From contig NZ_LIUT01000003.1 in the NCBI RefSeq assembly GCF_001277345.1, forward strand, positions 442,152 to 506,151: 64,000 nt of DNA, in the 5' to 3' direction. The notes beneath the pieces are model-generated. The model was not told the origin of the DNA and made no database searches. It saw only the letters and a program-made list of their open reading frames with translations. A program made the position numbers and the translations under genes. Shown here piece after piece: positions 23,231 through 28,599 of the stretch (within the stretch, counting starts at the first letter, position 1; every line of letters begins with the position of its first letter). The DNA comes from Paenibacillus solani (GTDB lineage: Bacteria; Bacillota; Bacilli; Paenibacillales; Paenibacillaceae).

Positions 23231-24007
23231 TTATGCTTCCACATCTCTCTTCGCAAAAACCATCCAGGAAATAAGGATGAACAGCAGGCAATAAACAACC
23301 AGGATCGTGATGGAGAAACCCAGACCCACTCCCCAGGGACCGACAGGCGATTTCAGGTAGCCGCTCAGATCGGTGTGAAGAAAGAGCAAGTATTTAGCCC
23401 ATTCAAACCGCTCCGGATTAAAGATAAAACTGAATATATCCTTAGTGAACAGGAATAACAGAGATAATCCAATAGCCAAGCCGCTGGAGCGAAATACCGT
23501 GGAGAGCATAAAGGCGATCAGCGAAATGACAAACACTTGGATCGTATCTGTCAGCAGCAGCAGAAGGGAGCTGTCCATGGAAGAACCCCCAGAGCTATTG
23601 GCAAATCCGGTATTACCGGAAAATAACAGCAGCGAGGCAGTGATGCCTGCCACAGCTGTTATAGCAGCACACAGCAGAAGGAACAAACACAGGGAAACGA
23701 ATTTGGACAGTAGAATCTTCCCTCGGCTCCATGGCCGAATCAGAAGCAGCTTGATGGTCCCCCCGGCAAATTCCCCTGCCACGATATCCGCAGCGATTAT
23801 AACCGTAAATATTGCGCTCAAGTAGATGGTGAAGCTCTCTGTCCATGTAAATACAGTCCAGACATCCATCGGAGCATTGGTCCAGTACAGCATGGCAGGC
23901 ATAGCTGCATTAAACAAGAGAAGAAGCGAGAGCATCACCCATGTTCGGACCCGATAATATACCTTCATATTCTCGTTCGCTACAAGACGGGCAAAGTTAA
24001 TCAACAA
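23231..24007 (-). CDS. ABC-2 type transporter permease
   Basis: A 258-residue integral membrane protein with about six transmembrane segments, including WVMLSLLLLFNAAMPAML, FTVIIAADIVAGEFAGGTIKLLL (with the family's EFAGGTIKLLL segment) and a last one ending YCLLFILISWMVFAKRD. It starts with TTG (24007 or 24004) after GGAGGGG and overlaps the ATPase gene by 11 bases, so the two make one exporter. Substrate unknown; the form resembles bacitracin-type or antibiotic exporters of Bacillales. Confidence 0.9.
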   Translation of the reverse strand: MLINFARLVANENMKVYYRVRTWVMLSLLLLFNAAMPAMLYWTNAPMDVWTVFTWTESFTIYLSAIFTVIIAADIVAGEFAGGTIKLLLIRPWSRGKILLSKFVSLCLFLLLCAAITAVAGITASLLLFSGNTGFANSSGGSSMDSSLLLLLTDTIQVFVISLIAFMLSTVFRSSGLAIGLSLLFLFTKDIFSFIFNPERFEWAKYLLFLHTDLSGYLKSPVGPWGVGLGFSITILVVYCLLFILISWMVFAKRDVEA

Positions 24008-24914
24008 CAGATTCCCCTCCCGTCATTTCCATGAATTGATCCTCCAGCGACCGGGTTACCGGCTGTATGGCATAAACGCGCAGGCCTGCTCCAACCAATC
24101 TCGCATTAATGTCCGCAATCATATTCTGGTCTCCTCGAACCATCAGCTGGTGATCCCGAGCTGTTGCTTGGATGTCTTCCAGGAGTGCTGCAGCAGCTTC
24201 CACATCGTTGACGGTGAATGCCGTCTCTTCGTACATCCGCTCTCCCTCAGCCGTGCGAAGCCGGCGGATATCAATCAGCTTACCGTGACGGATAACGCCG
24301 ATGGTATCACACATCTGTTCCATTTCGGACAACAAATGGCTGGATACAAAGACGGATGTCCCTTCCTCTTGTGTCAATCTGCGCAAATAATCCCGCAGCT
24401 CCCGAATACCTTGCGGATCCAAGCCATTCGTAGGCTCGTCCAGGATCAATAGCTTGGGCCTGTGCAGCAGCGCCTGCGCTACGCCGAGACGTTGACGCAT
24501 TCCCAGCGAATACGTACTCACCTTCTCATGTATCCGCTTACCAAGTCCAACGAGTTCCACCACCTCATCGATCCGCGCCTTGGTGATGCCCTTCATCATT
24601 CTCGCAAAATGTTTCAGGTTGTTATAACCCGATAAATACTTATACATTTCGGGGTTCTCAACAATGGCACCGATCTGTGTAGCGGCCTGCTCGTAATTCT
24701 TACGAATGCTATATCCTCCTATGATAATATCCCCTTGTGTAATGGACATCAGTCCCACCATCATGCGAATGGTAGTTGTCTTGCCTGCTCCGTTAGGTCC
24801 CAGAAATCCGAAGATTTGTCCAGGCATGATATCAAAGGTCACATTATCTACCAGGACTTTAGATGATATTTTCTTCGTAACACCCACTAGGCTTACCAAT
24901 GGTTCCTGCTTCAT
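23997..24914 (-). CDS. ABC transporter ATP-binding protein
   Basis: The 305-residue ATPase has Walker A GPNGAGKTTT, Q-loop, signature YSLGMRQRLGVA, Walker B LLILDEPTNGLD and the H-loop VFVSSHLLSEMEQ, followed by a ~90-residue C-terminal extension typical of CcmA/BcrA-like exporters. ATG at 24914 has GGGAGG. With the overlapping permease gene it forms a two-gene export unit. No regulator lies immediately beside it. Confidence 0.93.
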   Translation of the reverse strand: MKQEPLVSLVGVTKKISSKVLVDNVTFDIMPGQIFGFLGPNGAGKTTTIRMMVGLMSITQGDIIIGGYSIRKNYEQAATQIGAIVENPEMYKYLSGYNNLKHFARMMKGITKARIDEVVELVGLGKRIHEKVSTYSLGMRQRLGVAQALLHRPKLLILDEPTNGLDPQGIRELRDYLRRLTQEEGTSVFVSSHLLSEMEQMCDTIGVIRHGKLIDIRRLRTAEGERMYEETAFTVNDVEAAAALLEDIQATARDHQLMVRGDQNMIADINARLVGAGLRVYAIQPVTRSLEDQFMEMTGGESVVD

Positions 24915-25018
24915 TTGATCTATCCTCCCTTGCCTATGCACCATGAATATCTCCACATTATACATTATCAGGACAAGAGACAAAATATTGGGCATGCGTT
25001 AAACCTACTGCTTTTGGC

Positions 25019-25180
25019 TCAATCGGTATCCTCCTGATGTACCAAATCAGCCGATTGACACTCCTTGCAAATCCCCGCTGGAACACCGTGCTTATAAAAT
25101 CCGGTTTTAAACAAGCTGTCGCCTTGAGCAACCGGAATCAAGCGACAGCAGCCGACGCAATACATCATCACTTCTTTCAT
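25019..25180 (-). CDS. Small four-cysteine protein, likely zinc-binding
   Basis: A 53-residue protein with MYCVGCCRLIP and GICKECQSADLVH: two CxxC pairs spaced ~30 residues apart, the shape of a zinc ribbon/knuckle. I do not recognise a named family. GGGGAGGAG precedes the ATG at 25180. A near-consensus promoter (TTGACA-17-TAGAAT) lies upstream and an exact XRE operator copy sits at its transcription start, so it is probably repressed by one of the two XRE proteins nearby. Confidence 0.7.
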   Translation of the reverse strand: MKEVMMYCVGCCRLIPVAQGDSLFKTGFYKHGVPAGICKECQSADLVHQEDTD

Positions 25181-25233
25181 CCCGTCATCTCCTCCCCGGG
25201 ATTGACGCATCTATTCTATGTATTTTTTAAAAT

Positions 25234-25287
25234 GATACAAATTGTATCTATAACAGAAATTCTATATAAATTGTTGCACTTTGTCAA
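25234..25287 (-). promoter_or_regulatory. Promoter with XRE-type operator (for the 4-Cys gene)
   Basis: Minus strand TTGACA (25287-25282), 17-base spacer, TAGAAT (25264-25259), then the perfect palindrome GATACAATTTGTATC (25248-25234) starting about 10 bases after the -10 box, where a bound repressor would block initiation. Confidence 0.75.
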
Positions 25288-25377
25288 ATATTATTGTGGA
25301 TCGAAAGTAACTAATGCTCAAGGCTCAAAGGCTTAGAAGGGTTATGCTTATTTTTTTAATAAATGCTACAATATGTA

Positions 25378-25413
25378 TTGACGATAGACGAAATTTAGGA
25401 TACATTTTGTATC
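25378..25413 (+). promoter_or_regulatory. Promoter with XRE-type operator (autoregulation of the first XRE gene)
   Basis: TTGACG (25378-25383), 17-base spacer, TACATT (25401-25406); the operator GATACATTTTGTATC (25399-25413) covers the -10 box. A degenerate copy GCTACAATATGTATT lies at 25365-25379. Confidence 0.72.
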
Positions 25414-25478
25414 ATATTGATATTTCCATTTTGATGTTTAGTCTACATGAATGGATCTTTTTAGAGAGGTGAGCATGC

Positions 25479-25673
25479 ATGTCATATGGATCTCGCATTG
25501 CAAAATTGCGGGAGCAGAAAGGTTGGACTCAAGAAGAATTATCCGAGCTTATCGGTATCAGCCGTGCTTCTTTATCACATTATGAGAAAAATCGCAGAGA
25601 ACCTAATCTGGAGACTCTAACCAAATTGGCGGATGTATTTCAAACCACGATTGACCAAATTATTGGTAGATAG
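25479..25673 (+). CDS. Small XRE-family repressor
   Basis: At 64 residues the protein is little more than one helix-turn-helix: GSRIAKLREQKGWTQEELSELIGISRASLSHYEKNRREPNLETLTKLADVF, a complete HTH_3 domain, with the recognition helix ISRASLSHYEKNRRE. It is nearly identical in this helix to the second XRE protein at 27.8 kb (ITRAALSHYEKNRRK), so both should bind the same operator. Its own -10 box is covered by that operator. GAGAGGTGAG precedes the ATG. By size and sequence it resembles the Xre repressor of PBSX-like elements and short SinR-type regulators. Confidence 0.9.
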   Translation: MSYGSRIAKLREQKGWTQEELSELIGISRASLSHYEKNRREPNLETLTKLADVFQTTIDQIIGR

Positions 25674-25736
25674 CCACACTTCCCCCACTTGCGAATAACA
25701 GTACGATGCCCCTCATCCCCGTTATGTGCTCACGCC

Positions 25737-25772
25737 CAAAACCCCCTCTCTTAGAATAAAAAGGGGGGGTGG
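25737..25772 (-). terminator. Probable terminator of the LCP gene
   Basis: Minus strand CACCCCCC... pairs with AGGGGGT, loop A/T-rich, followed by TTTTGGG. Lies between convergent genes. Confidence 0.5.
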
Positions 25773-25780
25773 GTTGCAAC

Positions 25781-26707
25781 TCATTCCATATATTCTCGCA
25801 ATGTTGTGATAATGTCTTCCCTTTCCTTATCACCGACAATAAAATACCAAATTCCGTTTATTCTCTGCCCATAACCAGCAATCTCTACCTGCTCGACCTT
25901 CCCTATATGATGACGGTACTCTGTTAGAAGCTGTTTCATCTCCTCAAATGAAATATCGGTCTTTACGCTGCTTCCAATCTGATTGAGAAGGGTTTCCAGT
26001 TTAAACACAGTCGAAACTCTTAATGCTTTATCCAGAATCCCCTCCAGCACTTCTCTTTGTCTAACATTCCTTCCCAAATCGCCCTTTGGATCCTCAAACC
26101 GCATTCGTGAGAAGGCAAGTGCTTCGCTGCCATTCAGGTTCAACTGTCCCTGGTCAAAGTTATAACCACCATATTCAAACTTCATACGATTATTTACGGT
26201 AACTCCACCTAACGAATCTACAATGCTCGAGAAGCCCTCCATATCCACTTTAATGTAGTAATCGATGGGAAACTGCAGGAAATTCTCCACGGTACTGACT
26301 GACATCGGGATGCCTCCAAATGCGTAGGCGTGATTAATTTTATCCACGGTCCCATATCCGACAATATCAGTCCGTGTATCACGGGGAATATTAAACATGA
26401 GCACAGCCCCCTTCGTAGGGTTGACTGCCATGAGTATCATCACGTCGGAGCGGCCCCGATCATGGGGCCTTTGGTCTACACCCAAAACCAAAACAGTAAA
26501 TGCATCTGTATCCTTCGTAATGTTCTCTCCCGTCTTGGTGCGCTCACCGCCATAAGTGAATGTCGGGGTTACAGGCGATGGCTGCCGCTCTTCATACATT
26601 TGTTCTGCCGTTGATTTAATAGATTGATACGTATACAACAGATAAGCCGAAGGCAGCAATATAAGAATCGCCAGCGGCCACAGGACCCATTTTAATTTCA
26701 TCTTCAT
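25781..26707 (-). CDS. LCP (LytR-CpsA-Psr) family transferase
   Basis: LCP enzymes attach wall teichoic acids or other glycopolymers to peptidoglycan on the outer face of the membrane. The 308-residue protein has a short basic start, a transmembrane helix (about 5-27, WVLWPLAILILLPSAYLLY), then the LCP domain: FTVLVLGVDQRPHDRGRSDVMIL, NIPRDTRTDI, DKINHAYAFGG, YYIKVDMEGFSSIVDSLGGV and ALAFSRMRFEDPKGDLGRNVRQREVL, with the expected Arg/Asp residues. I take ATG at 26707 (GGAGG 9 bases before). The 450 bases upstream to 27158 contain nothing I can name. Confidence 0.93.
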   Translation of the reverse strand: MKMKLKWVLWPLAILILLPSAYLLYTYQSIKSTAEQMYEERQPSPVTPTFTYGGERTKTGENITKDTDAFTVLVLGVDQRPHDRGRSDVMILMAVNPTKGAVLMFNIPRDTRTDIVGYGTVDKINHAYAFGGIPMSVSTVENFLQFPIDYYIKVDMEGFSSIVDSLGGVTVNNRMKFEYGGYNFDQGQLNLNGSEALAFSRMRFEDPKGDLGRNVRQREVLEGILDKALRVSTVFKLETLLNQIGSSVKTDISFEEMKQLLTEYRHHIGKVEQVEIAGYGQRINGIWYFIVGDKEREDIITTLREYME

Positions 26708-27158
26708 CCTTAAATGCCTCCATGGCATGGACCATATTCTGTCCGATTGTAGGGATAAGCAAATTTATGAACTGGATGTAACCAGCATAATGTAAGGTTA
26801 GAAATGACTAGATCTTTACGGCGGGATCATACGGGATTGCTTTTTATTTTTGACTATAATAAATCAATGATCTGGCTGGGACTCAAGTAATCAAAGGACA
26901 GGAGAAAGGTAATTAGCAGAAATAAATATCGAGGATATAGAGTATCGTTAATTAAAATTTGTCGATAAAATTATGGGATGAGAATTCCATATTTGATGAG
27001 GATTAACCTAACTTTTCTCTCAGGTATGTCCTACATCTTCTGTATGATTTAAGGTAAAAGAACTAATGACCAAGCAACATAAATATAGTAGAATATCAAT
27101 TAAACCATTATAATGATTCAGTAAGATTACCTGTTTGGTGCAGGAAATCTATTACAAT

Positions 27159-27521
27159 TTAGTTATAAAGGCTAATTTTCTGGGAATCATTATGACCAAA
27201 CATCATGCGGTTCAGCATACCTACAATCCGAGTCTTTTTATCGCCATCTGTATGAAATTCCGTATGATACAGTTGACGGCCATAAAAGAGTCCTCTTGAT
27301 TCAATGCGTCCTGTTACCTGGATATGATCTACATTATCATCAATTTCGTATCCCAAAACAACGTTGGAATGGATCGGTATTTCCCAAGGACACAGGAATA
27401 CAAGACCACTAGGCAGCAGCTCTAGCGGCGTCACGGAATGACTTTTCCCATGAATGGTTAAATCTCCGATTTTCATGACTTTAATTCTTACCGTGATTTG
27501 ATGTTGCCGTTCTTGTAACAT
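27159..27521 (-). CDS. PilZ-like domain protein
   Basis: A 120-residue protein with beta-strand pattern and PilZ-like motifs: KVMKIGDLTIHGKSHSVTPLELLPSGLVFLCP near the start and IQVTGRIESRGLFYGRQLYHTEF later, similar to the GxVxxxxxxG-x-YGVEF end of PilZ domains. The canonical RxxxR and D/NxSxxG c-di-GMP motifs are not well preserved, so ligand binding is doubtful. Start at 27521 is uncertain; AAGGAG lies rather far (14 bases). Two copies of the XRE operator sit in and just after its promoter, so it is probably a repressor target. Confidence 0.6.
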   Translation of the reverse strand: MLQERQHQITVRIKVMKIGDLTIHGKSHSVTPLELLPSGLVFLCPWEIPIHSNVVLGYEIDDNVDHIQVTGRIESRGLFYGRQLYHTEFHTDGDKKTRIVGMLNRMMFGHNDSQKISLYN

Positions 27522-27618
27522 TTGTGGTAACCCATCCGCTCCTTGTTAGTATTTTGTGGTATGGGACAACTTCGTGCTGGATAAAATGATACCAACCGTC
27601 ACCAACCATGATTATCCA

Positions 27619-27674
27619 GATACAATATGTATCTGACTCATGTTAATAATACGATACATAGTGTATCTAGTCAA
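27619..27674 (-). promoter_or_regulatory. Double XRE-type operator in the PilZ-like gene promoter
   Basis: Minus strand TTGACT (27674-27669), 17-base spacer, TATTAT (27651-27646). The operator GATACA-CTA-TGTATC (27667-27653) fills the spacer between the two boxes, and a second, GATACA-TAT-TGTATC (27633-27619), lies just downstream near the expected transcription start. Confidence 0.78.
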
Positions 27675-27703
27675 TTAAAAAGTAGCCTTTTTATGTATAT
27701 AAT
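27675..27703 (+). promoter_or_regulatory. Candidate promoter of the second XRE gene
   Basis: TTAAAA (27675-27680), 17-base spacer, perfect TATAAT (27698-27703). The -35 box is weak. The operator at 27653-27667 lies immediately upstream, back to back with the divergent promoter. Confidence 0.5.
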
Positions 27704-27778
27704 AAATCGGCAAATTTAACTTATGGATCTATCCAATAACTTCTATAGATACAAGCCACTCGAAAGGGGGATCAATGC

Positions 27779-28147
27779 GTGAACTACGGAGAACGAATAT
27801 CAGAATTACGTGAACAGCATGGATGGACTCAGGAAGAACTCGCTACCTCTGTCGGTATTACACGTGCTGCCCTATCCCATTATGAAAAAAATCGCCGCAA
27901 GCCTGACTTCGAAACATTGACCCGCTTGGCAGATCTCTTCGATGTATCCATAGACTATCTGATCGGGAGAACGACACAGGAGAAAGTGGTGCTTGACCCG
28001 GAGGTACGGGCGTTTGTGGATGGTCTTGAGCTATCCGATGAGGATTTATTGGAGCGCTTTAACCTTACCGTGGATGGTCGTAAATTAACCGAAGATGAAG
28101 CTAAACGATTCATTGCATTTGTCCGCATGGAAAGGGCCATGAAATAA
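27779..28147 (+). CDS. XRE-family repressor with C-terminal helical domain
   Basis: The 122-residue protein has an HTH_3 domain (residues 1-64: ERISELREQHGWTQEELATSVGITRAALSHYEKNRRKPDFETLTRLADLFDVSIDYLIG) and a ~55-residue acidic helical C-terminal part (VRAFVDGLELSDEDLLERF...EDEAKRFIAFVRMERAMK) that could hold dimers or bind an antirepressor. GTG at 27779 follows AAAGGGGG with 8 bases between. Its HTH is a close copy of the 64-residue XRE at 25.5 kb, and operators of the same type flank it. It is followed by a terminator and a convergent 52-codon gene. Confidence 0.92.
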   Translation: MNYGERISELREQHGWTQEELATSVGITRAALSHYEKNRRKPDFETLTRLADLFDVSIDYLIGRTTQEKVVLDPEVRAFVDGLELSDEDLLERFNLTVDGRKLTEDEAKRFIAFVRMERAMK

Positions 28148-28170
28148 TACGTCGTAACGATTAACCACAA

Positions 28171-28219
28171 ATCCCCGACATGTGAATGTAAATTGCTGCA
28201 CTCACGTATCGGGGATTGT
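28171..28219. terminator. Intrinsic terminator after the second XRE gene
   Basis: AATCCCCGA pairs with TCGGGGATT, loop of about 30 bases with its own inverted part; followed by GTTGTCGTT on the plus strand. Confidence 0.55.
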
Positions 28220-28224
28220 TGTCG

Positions 28225-28383
28225 TTATGGTTGATTTTTATTTTTTCGCAGTGTCTCCATTTGCAGCCATTGATCAGGATGGATTCCTAATTGAGTCATA
28301 AGCTTGTTGATATCTAGGTTTGTCTTCTGTTGGTCAAGCCGATGCTCGGTGCTTCCGGAGCTTCTCTCCTTGTCCACACTCAT
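28225..28383 (-). CDS. Small ORF of 52 codons, convergent with the second XRE gene
   Basis: The frame MSVDKERSSGSTEHRLDQQK followed by a helix-like DINKLMTQLGIHPDQWLQ and a basic end starts with ATG at 28383, 10 bases after GCGAGGT, and ends TAA at 28225. It is hydrophilic, with a central amphipathic stretch. It shares an intergenic region with the XRE gene, and one may think of SinI-like antirepressors (short, helical, beside an XRE gene), but I see no convincing sequence match, so this stays a hint. It is short for automatic gene calling and may be overlooked. Confidence 0.45.
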   Translation of the reverse strand: MSVDKERSSGSTEHRLDQQKTNLDINKLMTQLGIHPDQWLQMETLRKNKNQP

Positions 28384-28599
28384 TTCTACAATTACCTCGC
28401 TTATCTATAATTTCGTCTCCATCCCAGCTCCTTACAATTGGTGTAAATATAATCTATACAGGAAACTTTTTGAACAAGTTACTTATCAATATTATAACCA
28501 ATGAATCCATACGATGCTGTCGTCTCATGGAACCATTGTCCAAAACATCCGGTTCTAATTTTGTCGAATTATATTTTGAAAGCGATACCAGAGAATCTA

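Follow-up and report, generated by a model that had tools for sequence, protein, structure and literature searches.

The window analysed here, the whole stretch of 64,000 nucleotides from Paenibacillus solani, carries a conserved module that is likely to be a matrix switch running from the sporulation regulator Spo0A through an antirepressor to the repressor XRE2, with a logic like that of SinR/SinI but with other proteins. As judged from the sequence, XRE2 would be encoded on the chromosome and repress a matrix regulon of the Paenibacillaceae, and would bind 15-bp operators that typically lie in pairs about 34 bp apart, with one box filling the -35/-10 spacer. It is from this arrangement that a shut-off of the target promoters by XRE2 is proposed. 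The predicted targets are EPS (exopolysaccharide) operons, a PilZ-domain gene, XRE1 and a 4-Cys/ABC-transporter operon, together with lasso-peptide, VanZ and pectate-lyase-like genes depending on the strain. Rising Spo0A~P would activate a small gene beside XRE2 via two conserved boxes, and the small protein would bind the C-terminal domain of XRE2, by which the regulon would be released. XRE1, having its own operator, would be autoregulated and act as a partner of XRE2 or compete for its sites in a Cro- or SlrR-like manner.

Operator boxes and the XRE proteins

The features of the operator region are as follows.

23231..24995, minus strand: ABC transporter genes (ATPase and ABC-2 permease; PF00005, PF12730), downstream of the 4-Cys gene
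25019..25210, minus strand: small 4-Cys protein, weak DUF3973 likeness (PF13119, E 0.0028, 18.1 bits, cut-off 25)
25234..25248, no strand: operator of the 4-Cys gene, with the promoter on one side and, at 24 bp, the beginning of the ORF on the other
25365..25379, no strand: degenerate partner operator, 2 mismatches, 34 bp upstream of 25399
25399..25413, no strand: operator over the -10 of XRE1, matching the PBSX Xre consensus at every position
25479..25673, plus strand: XRE1, 64 aa (PF01381, 6.5e-21), an HTH domain alone, lacking a C-terminal domain
27159..27521, minus strand: degenerate PilZ-domain gene divergent from XRE2, its protein in the window being without a Pfam match
27619..27633, no strand: second operator of the tandem pair, 34 bp from the 27653 box
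27653..27667, no strand: operator in the promoter of the PilZ gene, within its 17-bp spacer
27779..28147, plus strand: XRE2, 122 aa (HTH_3, PF01381, 1.2e-19), with a nearly invariant C-terminal domain

The palindrome GATACA-N3-TGTATC was found exactly at all four sites reported by the first-pass annotation (25234, 25399, 27619 and 27653). The degenerate partner at 25365 and two exact boxes on contig C6 were absent from that annotation. At up to two mismatches the window held 8 matches against a shuffled mean of 2.21, and 8 were reached in 1 of 100 shuffles. In the 6.2-Mb genome there were 6 exact boxes compared to 0 for the pattern read backwards, and 19 compared to 4 at up to one mismatch. 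The 6 exact boxes comprised the four in the window and the two on C6, which precede an EPS cluster and VanZ/pectate-lyase-like genes. On the home contig, exact and one-mismatch boxes amounted to the four and C9:202879, about 264 kb away, an intergenic site with one mismatch (TATACAAATTGTATC) that may be real. Most of the remaining one-mismatch sites in the genome fall within ORFs and resemble chance matches.

The placement of the boxes relative to promoters was as first described. The 25399-25413 box covers the -10 of the XRE1 promoter TTGACG-17-TACATT (25378-25406), and the 27653-27667 box fills the spacer of TTGACT-17-TATTAT (27674-27646, minus strand) before the PilZ gene, with the 27619 box directly downstream of this promoter. 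The 25234 box, previously assigned to the start region of the 4-Cys gene, lies between TTGACA-17-TAGAAT (25287-25259) and the ORF. The proposed control by the boxes is clearer for XRE1, the PilZ gene and the 4-Cys gene than for XRE2, since the nearest promoter-like match of XRE2 (TTAAAA-17-TATAAT, 27675-27703) lies outside both boxes. The 13 promoter-like matches in the stretch were by themselves not above chance (shuffled mean 12.3), and their weight comes from conservation rather than number. Of the 518 oriented contexts, which came from 259 distinct sites, 79 had a box filling the promoter spacer, versus a mean of 1.35 at other offsets, and a tandem spacing of 32-36 bp was seen in 56 of 78 distinct neighbouring box pairs.

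XRE1 and XRE2 share 66% identity over 65 residues. Their recognition helices, which have a common motif, are near-identical, and on this ground it is plausible that each protein acts on the sites of the other in a cross-regulated switch. The structure model of XRE2 had a pLDDT of 91. An orthologue set of 80 named Paenibacillaceae loci was kept from 250 relatives, and operators were present upstream of XRE2 in 78 of them at up to two mismatches, in 74 at up to one and in 34 exactly. This conservation upstream of XRE genes supports the earlier view of the boxes as common operators of XRE regulators. Across species the XRE2 module is flanked by the same two chromosomal genes, the PilZ gene and gltB; in P. 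ottowii a box lies between divergent XRE2 and Wzz/ATPase genes.

The small gene convergent to XRE2

28225..28383, minus strand: small ORF of 52 aa that converges on XRE2, a candidate antirepressor with a role like that of SinI
28491..28496, minus strand: TATAAT, -10 of the small ORF, with a gap of 21 bp to the proximal box
28518..28524, minus strand: proximal Spo0A-type box, GACGACA, with the distal box 43-44 bp away
28559..28568, minus strand: distal Spo0A-type box TTCGACAAAA (TTTTGTCGAA on the plus strand), the sole exact 10-mer in the window

The 52-codon ORF proved to be a real gene: all 18 genus loci have it, each time convergent to XRE2. Of the 80 named loci, 78 had it at E<0.1 and 73 at E<0.001, and its profile had no match elsewhere in these loci. 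Two helices were predicted in the small protein (25-31 and 36-49).

The conserved boxes upstream of this gene are read as Spo0A-type by their likeness to the Spo0A box consensus. Two of them stood at fixed spacing to TATAAT in 53 of the 64 upstream regions examined; the proximal box was present in all 53 sequences bearing the distal 10-mer, and in each of these its gap to TATAAT measured exactly 21 bp. The exact 10-mer occurred 52 times in 18.9 kb of upstream sequence compared to 4 times in the other 754 kb of these loci, and the 7-mer was upstream of 55 of 64 small ORFs against 8.2 in shuffled sequence. Among the 9 SinI genes that served as positive control, only 4 were preceded by a 7-mer and none by the exact 10-mer. 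The small gene is probably a release factor of XRE2 that Spo0A switches on, and the antirepressor role first suggested for it stays plausible given its conservation with XRE2, its size, the two predicted helices and the Spo0A-type promoter.

It is also conceivable, but in our estimate rather unlikely, that XRE2 represses the matrix regulon while the small ORF encodes a Spo0A-controlled protein of other function, for example one acting on glutamate synthase. The gene lies between XRE2 and gltB, which would suit such a function, and the protein showed no detectable homology to SinI (hhalign probability 1.2%). Nor was a SinI-type homology to the repressor itself detected (hhalign 0.07% against XRE2). 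Profile and fold searches with the small ORF gave no named structure match, and the two matches of the fold search (E 7.7 and 9.8) were uninformative. However, the gene accompanies XRE2 in nearly all loci, a terminator-like hairpin stands at the end of gltB, and the small gene is preceded by promoter elements of its own. Moreover, its size, helices, promoter and regulon fit the role of SinI.

Proposed target genes across genomes

Among 61 genomes of the genus, 66 exact boxes were counted in the 18 XRE2-positive genomes versus 24 in the other 43. In 17 XRE2-positive genomes, 61 of the 64 exact boxes examined lay within 450 bp of the start of a marker gene, the other 3 having no marker gene nearby, and EPS genes were among the box-associated markers in 15 of the 17. 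In XRE2-negative genomes, 6 of 6 boxes examined fell inside ORFs. One genome (G055) has XRE2 and 0 exact boxes. In Paenibacillus and relatives, a conserved repressor of EPS genes probably binds at this box; that XRE2 binds it, and does so as a repressor, is what we infer.

The box before the 4-Cys gene was conserved in 11 of 17 genomes and the order of 4-Cys gene and ABC transporter was retained in 11 of 17, and the transporter genes are probably part of the same target operon. The PilZ label given to the divergent gene holds through its orthologues: PF07238 was passed by 5 of the 9 divergent orthologues scanned (best 2.9e-13), 2 were just under the cut-off and 2 had no match. A PDB profile search with the PilZ alignment gave no meaningful match.

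An alternative that we consider improbable is that the box is generic for XRE proteins with the SHYE helix and serves the adjacent XRE gene, a third regulator acting at the EPS boxes. Boxes do adjoin other, unrelated XRE genes with this helix (L204, L212, L222), so that some boxes need not belong to XRE2, and further XRE relatives are encoded in this genome on contigs C5 and C7. But the number of boxes tracks the presence of XRE2, and in several genomes one box region is common to the EPS operon and an XRE1/XRE2-type gene, which argues against this alternative.

The matrix decision of Paenibacillus, the polymyxa group included, is poorly known. In the part consulted, a paper on Paenibacillus EPS clusters treats control only by analogy to B. 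subtilis SinR (PMC7911366), and in P. polymyxa on pepper a gene annotated sinR (PPSC2_25275) was slightly down and eps up (PMC7931354). Our search of the open-licence literature on the box and on Paenibacillus SinR, XRE, EPS and biofilm found no paper on XRE2 or its regulon. Now that genes, their operator and their likely targets can be named and a candidate antirepressor is at hand, the question of matrix control becomes directly testable. If the proposed switch is true, the lasso-peptide cluster would be tied to the same switch as the matrix genes.

Comparison with known repressor systems

XRE2 resembles Xre of PBSX, the repressor of a defective prophage of B. subtilis, in its XRE type and its proposed operator. 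The suggested likeness of the boxes was borne out: the PBSX Xre consensus is GATACATTTTGTATC (PMC4243335), and the 25399 site is identical to it. Unlike PBSX Xre, XRE2 would have a chromosomal matrix regulon, with no phage genes under the box. That XRE1 and XRE2 govern the PBSX-like tail genes and are responsive to DNA damage is highly improbable. The box does match the Xre consensus, and genes for tail sheath and baseplate are found at a distance of 20-35 kb. But the genome-wide search revealed no box, exact or with one mismatch, beside the tail cluster or past it, on which the earlier link to the tail genes fails; all 418 phage records with a match to XRE2 stayed below 60% identity; and the module keeps its chromosomal neighbours and its boxes accompany EPS genes.

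The nearest full-length solved relative of XRE2 by profile is the repressor of phage Phi106 (9sf2_A, residues 2-119, E 1.3e-12), an arbitrium-phage repressor (PDB 9sf2, 9iaq) with, according to the entry titles, a small antirepressor, AimX. It was among the top Foldseek rows for XRE2, with a TM of only 0.48-0.52 and an rmsd near 10, and in a second look (VIA) 9iaq aligned with XRE2 only over residues 1-71. Profiles of the small ORF matched no AimX chain at E up to 10, a weak test with such short sequences. Unlike Phi106/AimX, the present module lies on the host chromosome and has Spo0A-type boxes instead of AimR. As a tentative and somewhat doubtful origin, a repressor of phage type, its box like that of PBSX and its C-terminal domain like that of arbitrium repressors, may have been captured along with a small antirepressor by the Paenibacillaceae chromosome and placed under Spo0A. 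It would then have become the master switch of matrix, lasso-peptide and PilZ (c-di-GMP-type) genes, inventing the SinR/SinI logic a second time and displacing SinR/SinI and TasA in some members of the family.

In B. subtilis, SinR (111 aa) targets eps and tasA through the box GTTCTYT, and the gene of its antirepressor SinI (57 aa) is under Spo0A control (PMC3163267). The present module shares with SinR/SinI/SlrR a small XRE repressor, an adjacent gene that encodes 50-odd residues and has Spo0A-type boxes in its promoter, targets among EPS genes (here by operator placement) and a second XRE protein. Both here and in Paenibacillus SinR/SinI the two genes are convergent. The operator differs, being GATACA-N3-TGTATC instead of GTTCTYT: in EPS-side upstream regions of XRE2-positive genomes, 1 GTTCTYT box was found in 1 of 9, and 5 of 10 SinR loci had a 300-bp window with at least 3. 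The loci differ as well, the XRE2 pair lying between the PilZ gene and gltB and SinR/SinI by tasA and sucA. A same-locus replacement was rejected, as SinR/SinI adjoin TasA-family genes and sucA. A signal-peptidase-like gene beside SinR/SinI was named by eye and had no Pfam match. The SinR C-terminal domain was not seen against XRE2 in the VIA list, which is no test of that domain.

The SinI-family domain PF08671 had 0 matches in the P. solani genome, XRE2 and the small ORF included, and as positive controls a SinR and a SinI of Paenibacillus both matched and B. subtilis gave a match too. SinR/SinI are absent from the XRE2-positive genomes of the genus: among the 61, PF08671 was found in 42, XRE2 in 18 and both in 0 (Fisher p 1.4e-14), with one genome (G039) having neither, and this pattern, a count per genome, may reflect a single event. 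The TasA family was found in 0 of the 18 XRE2-positive genomes. Strict exclusivity, true in the genus sample, is broken at the family level, where XRE2 and SinR/SinI occur together in 18 of 148 genomes, so that replacement of SinR/SinI by XRE2 is no rule. If the proposed switch is true, one logic, in which Spo0A acts through a small antirepressor and an XRE repressor on the matrix, would have been reached with two sets of parts.

Boxes and candidate target genes in the source genome

The first-pass annotation had placed four copies of the 15-bp palindrome GATACA-N3-TGTATC (the box) at 25234, 25399, 27619 and 27653 of the window, and all four proved exact. The genome-wide search that it proposed (6,198,757 bases, 9 contigs) returned 6 exact sites, 4 in the window and 2 on contig C6, compared with 0 for the reversed pattern; at up to one mismatch the counts were 19 and 4. 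The C6 pair lies at ~105.6-108.5 kb, with one-mismatch boxes nearby. The genes concerned are as follows (L007 is the locus extracted from C6:98000-116000).

23231..24995 (-), ABC transporter
25019..25210 (-), 4-Cys gene
25479..25673 (+), XRE1, 64 aa, HTH domain alone
27159..27521 (-), PilZ gene, divergent from XRE2
27779..28147 (+), XRE2, 122 aa
28225..28383 (-), small ORF, 52 aa, convergent to XRE2
within C6:98000-116000, exopolysaccharide (EPS) cluster with boxes in front; first gene Wzz-type (4.7e-16), further genes a BY-kinase-type ATPase, NTP transferase, sugar transferase (2.8e-71) and Wzy_C (7.5e-10)
L007:4439-7549 (C6), lasso-peptide cyclase-like gene and HprK-related kinase gene with one-mismatch boxes, adjoining the EPS cluster

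L007 also has boxes in the interval that separates a VanZ-family gene from a pectate-lyase-like one. A one-mismatch box precedes the cyclase (NF033535, E 1.8e-113, under that model's cut-off), and the kinase gene comes next, as in paeninodin-type clusters. Another intergenic one-mismatch box, at C9:202879 (L022:2080), has a regulator-like gene on one side and, on the other, two genes of unknown function that form a unit; it is a possible further target. The genome-wide search placed no box, exact or with up to one mismatch, by the tail genes, whose sheath and baseplate were recognised with Pfam, and the proposed connection of the XRE switch with the PBSX-like tail cluster was therefore abandoned. 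As read from the sequence, these boxes belong to a conserved regulon with EPS at its centre, plus related surface or secreted products; XRE2 is likely its repressor, and XRE1, without a C-terminal domain, is likely a competitor.

Distribution and design of the operator

XRE2 (called at E below 1e-50) was present in 18 of 61 genus genomes, and at least one exact box in 37. The 18 XRE2-positive genomes held 66 exact boxes vs 24 in the 43 others, and the reversed pattern occurred 8 times across all 61. The contexts of 64 of the 66 were surveyed in 17 genomes (one box each in G009 and G019 was omitted; G055 is XRE2-positive with 0 exact boxes), and 61 of the 64 lay within 450 bp of a marker-gene start. 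The 6 boxes fetched of the 24 in XRE2-negative genomes were all inside ORFs. The markers were XRE1/XRE2-type genes in 17 of the 17 genomes, EPS in 15, 4-Cys/ABC in 11, PilZ in 10, VanZ in 7, pectate-lyase-like in 5 and lasso in 4. Only exact boxes were counted, so the lasso figure omits the source genome, whose lasso box has one mismatch. An XRE1-type gene and CpsB had a box region in common in seven genomes (G004, G013, G019, G029, G042, G047 and G051).

Among the best 80 of 250 XRE2 relatives in named genomes (chiefly Paenibacillus, some Cohnella, one Thermobacillus), the 700 bp 5' of XRE2 contained a box in 78 loci at up to two mismatches, in 74 at up to one and in 34 exactly; 73 had two or more (up to two mismatches), and 63 had a divergent PilZ-like gene (E<0.001). 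The PilZ proteins of Cohnella orthologues (L158, L162, L165) retain RxxxR and [DN]xSxxG, the c-di-GMP motif, and the window clade (27159-27521) has lost it. XRE2 of the window is 97% identical to those of P. lautus NBRC 15380 and Paenibacillus sp. EZ-K15, which puts the source genome close to P. lautus. In P. ottowii a Wzz/ATPase pair is divergent from XRE2 itself, with boxes between; others precede an acyltransferase and a sulfotransferase-family gene directed at a lasso-type asparagine synthase. In P. terrigena, P. sp. NAIST15-1 and P. alvei (L204, L212, L222), an exact box also adjoins the start of a different XRE gene, one with the motif TRSAYSHYE. This suggests that the SHYE recognition helix accompanies the box more widely.

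Operator design was evaluated on 259 distinct boxes (up to one mismatch; 518 oriented contexts) from the named-genome loci. The box occupied the 17-bp -35/-10 spacer in 79 contexts, where shifts of >3 bp averaged 1.35, and the second-highest peak (26 contexts), at offset -35, was the tandem partner box. Neighbouring boxes were 32-36 bp apart in 56 of 78 distinct pairs no more than 80 bp apart. This placement and spacing is what a repressor competing with RNA polymerase requires, and we infer repression through the boxes: XRE2 bound there would keep EPS and related genes silent.

The small ORF and its upstream region

A small-ORF homologue was convergent to XRE2 in 18/18 genus loci, 16 found by BLAST or identity and two (L039, L040) by eye and then aligned. 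The profile search of the best 80 of 250 named loci recovered it in 78 at E<0.1, 73 at E<0.001 and 63 at E<1e-5; it was not found in L161 and L167, and the profile matched at no other place in these 80. The core motif is [LIV]DI-x-K-x-[LM]-x-Q-x-GI-x(4)-W, and the predicted structure has helices at 25-31 and 36-49 (mean pLDDT 73.5).

TGNCGAA, the consensus of the Spo0A box, was present 5' of the small ORF in 55/64 loci (mean 8.2 and maximum 18 in 200 mononucleotide shuffles). The exact 10-mer TTCGACAAAA occurred 52 times, in a single orientation, in 18.9 kb of small-ORF upstream sequence and 4 times in the remaining 754 kb of the loci. A distal box was present in 53/64 upstream sequences; in all 53 a CGACA box followed 43-44 bp on, with an invariant 21 bp between that box and a TATAAT-type -10. 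Spacers of such promoters can be long where Spo0A is the activator. SinI genes, used for comparison, had TGNCGAA upstream in only 4/9 and the 10-mer in 0/9, which counts against the Spo0A reading. The small ORF is likely a Spo0A-controlled antirepressor of XRE2, through which Spo0A would release the regulon.

Comparison with phage switches and SinR/SinI

The PBSX Xre consensus appears as GATACATTTTGTATC in PMC4243335. The best full-length solved relative of XRE2 is the Phi106 repressor (9sf2, E 1.3e-12, residues 2-119), solved together with the small antirepressor AimX. Foldseek ranked 9iaq and 9sf2 top (TM ~0.5, rmsd ~10), and the VIA alignment with 9iaq covered the HTH part only. XRE2 relatives occurred in 418 phage records, all below 60% identity, the full-length ones among the matches listed at ~35%. 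Given these distant relatives and the Phi106 likeness, XRE2 is possibly a domesticated phage repressor.

The SinI-family domain PF08671 was present in 42/61 genus genomes and together with XRE2 in 0 (Fisher p 1.4e-14, kinship ignored); only G039 had neither. The TasA family (PF12389) was found in 34/61, every one SinI-positive, in 0/18 XRE2-positive genomes, and was absent from G012. Among 148 genomes of the family, 100 had XRE2 (E<1e-30), 45 PF08671 and 18 both, where independence predicts ~30 (p 6e-6, kinship ignored); paralogues may account for some of these matches to XRE2, with E near 1e-43. XRE2 and SinR/SinI are therefore alternatives in this genus, not everywhere. The SinR/SinI loci read (L259-L268) have sucA as neighbour throughout, except where the locus was cut, and TasA-family genes in most. 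Their neighbours differ from those of XRE2, so a swap at a single locus was rejected. In these Paenibacillus, sinR and sinI are convergent and have TasA-family genes close by; in B. subtilis the two genes stand in tandem.

The XRE2 and SinR profiles have the HTH domain in common (97.7%, residues 2-62) with no similarity outside it in the alignment, and the small ORF compared with SinI gave an hhalign probability of 1.2%. By domain, homologous partner and operator, the XRE2 system thus falls outside SinR/SinI, while in how it is proposed to work it would be alike.
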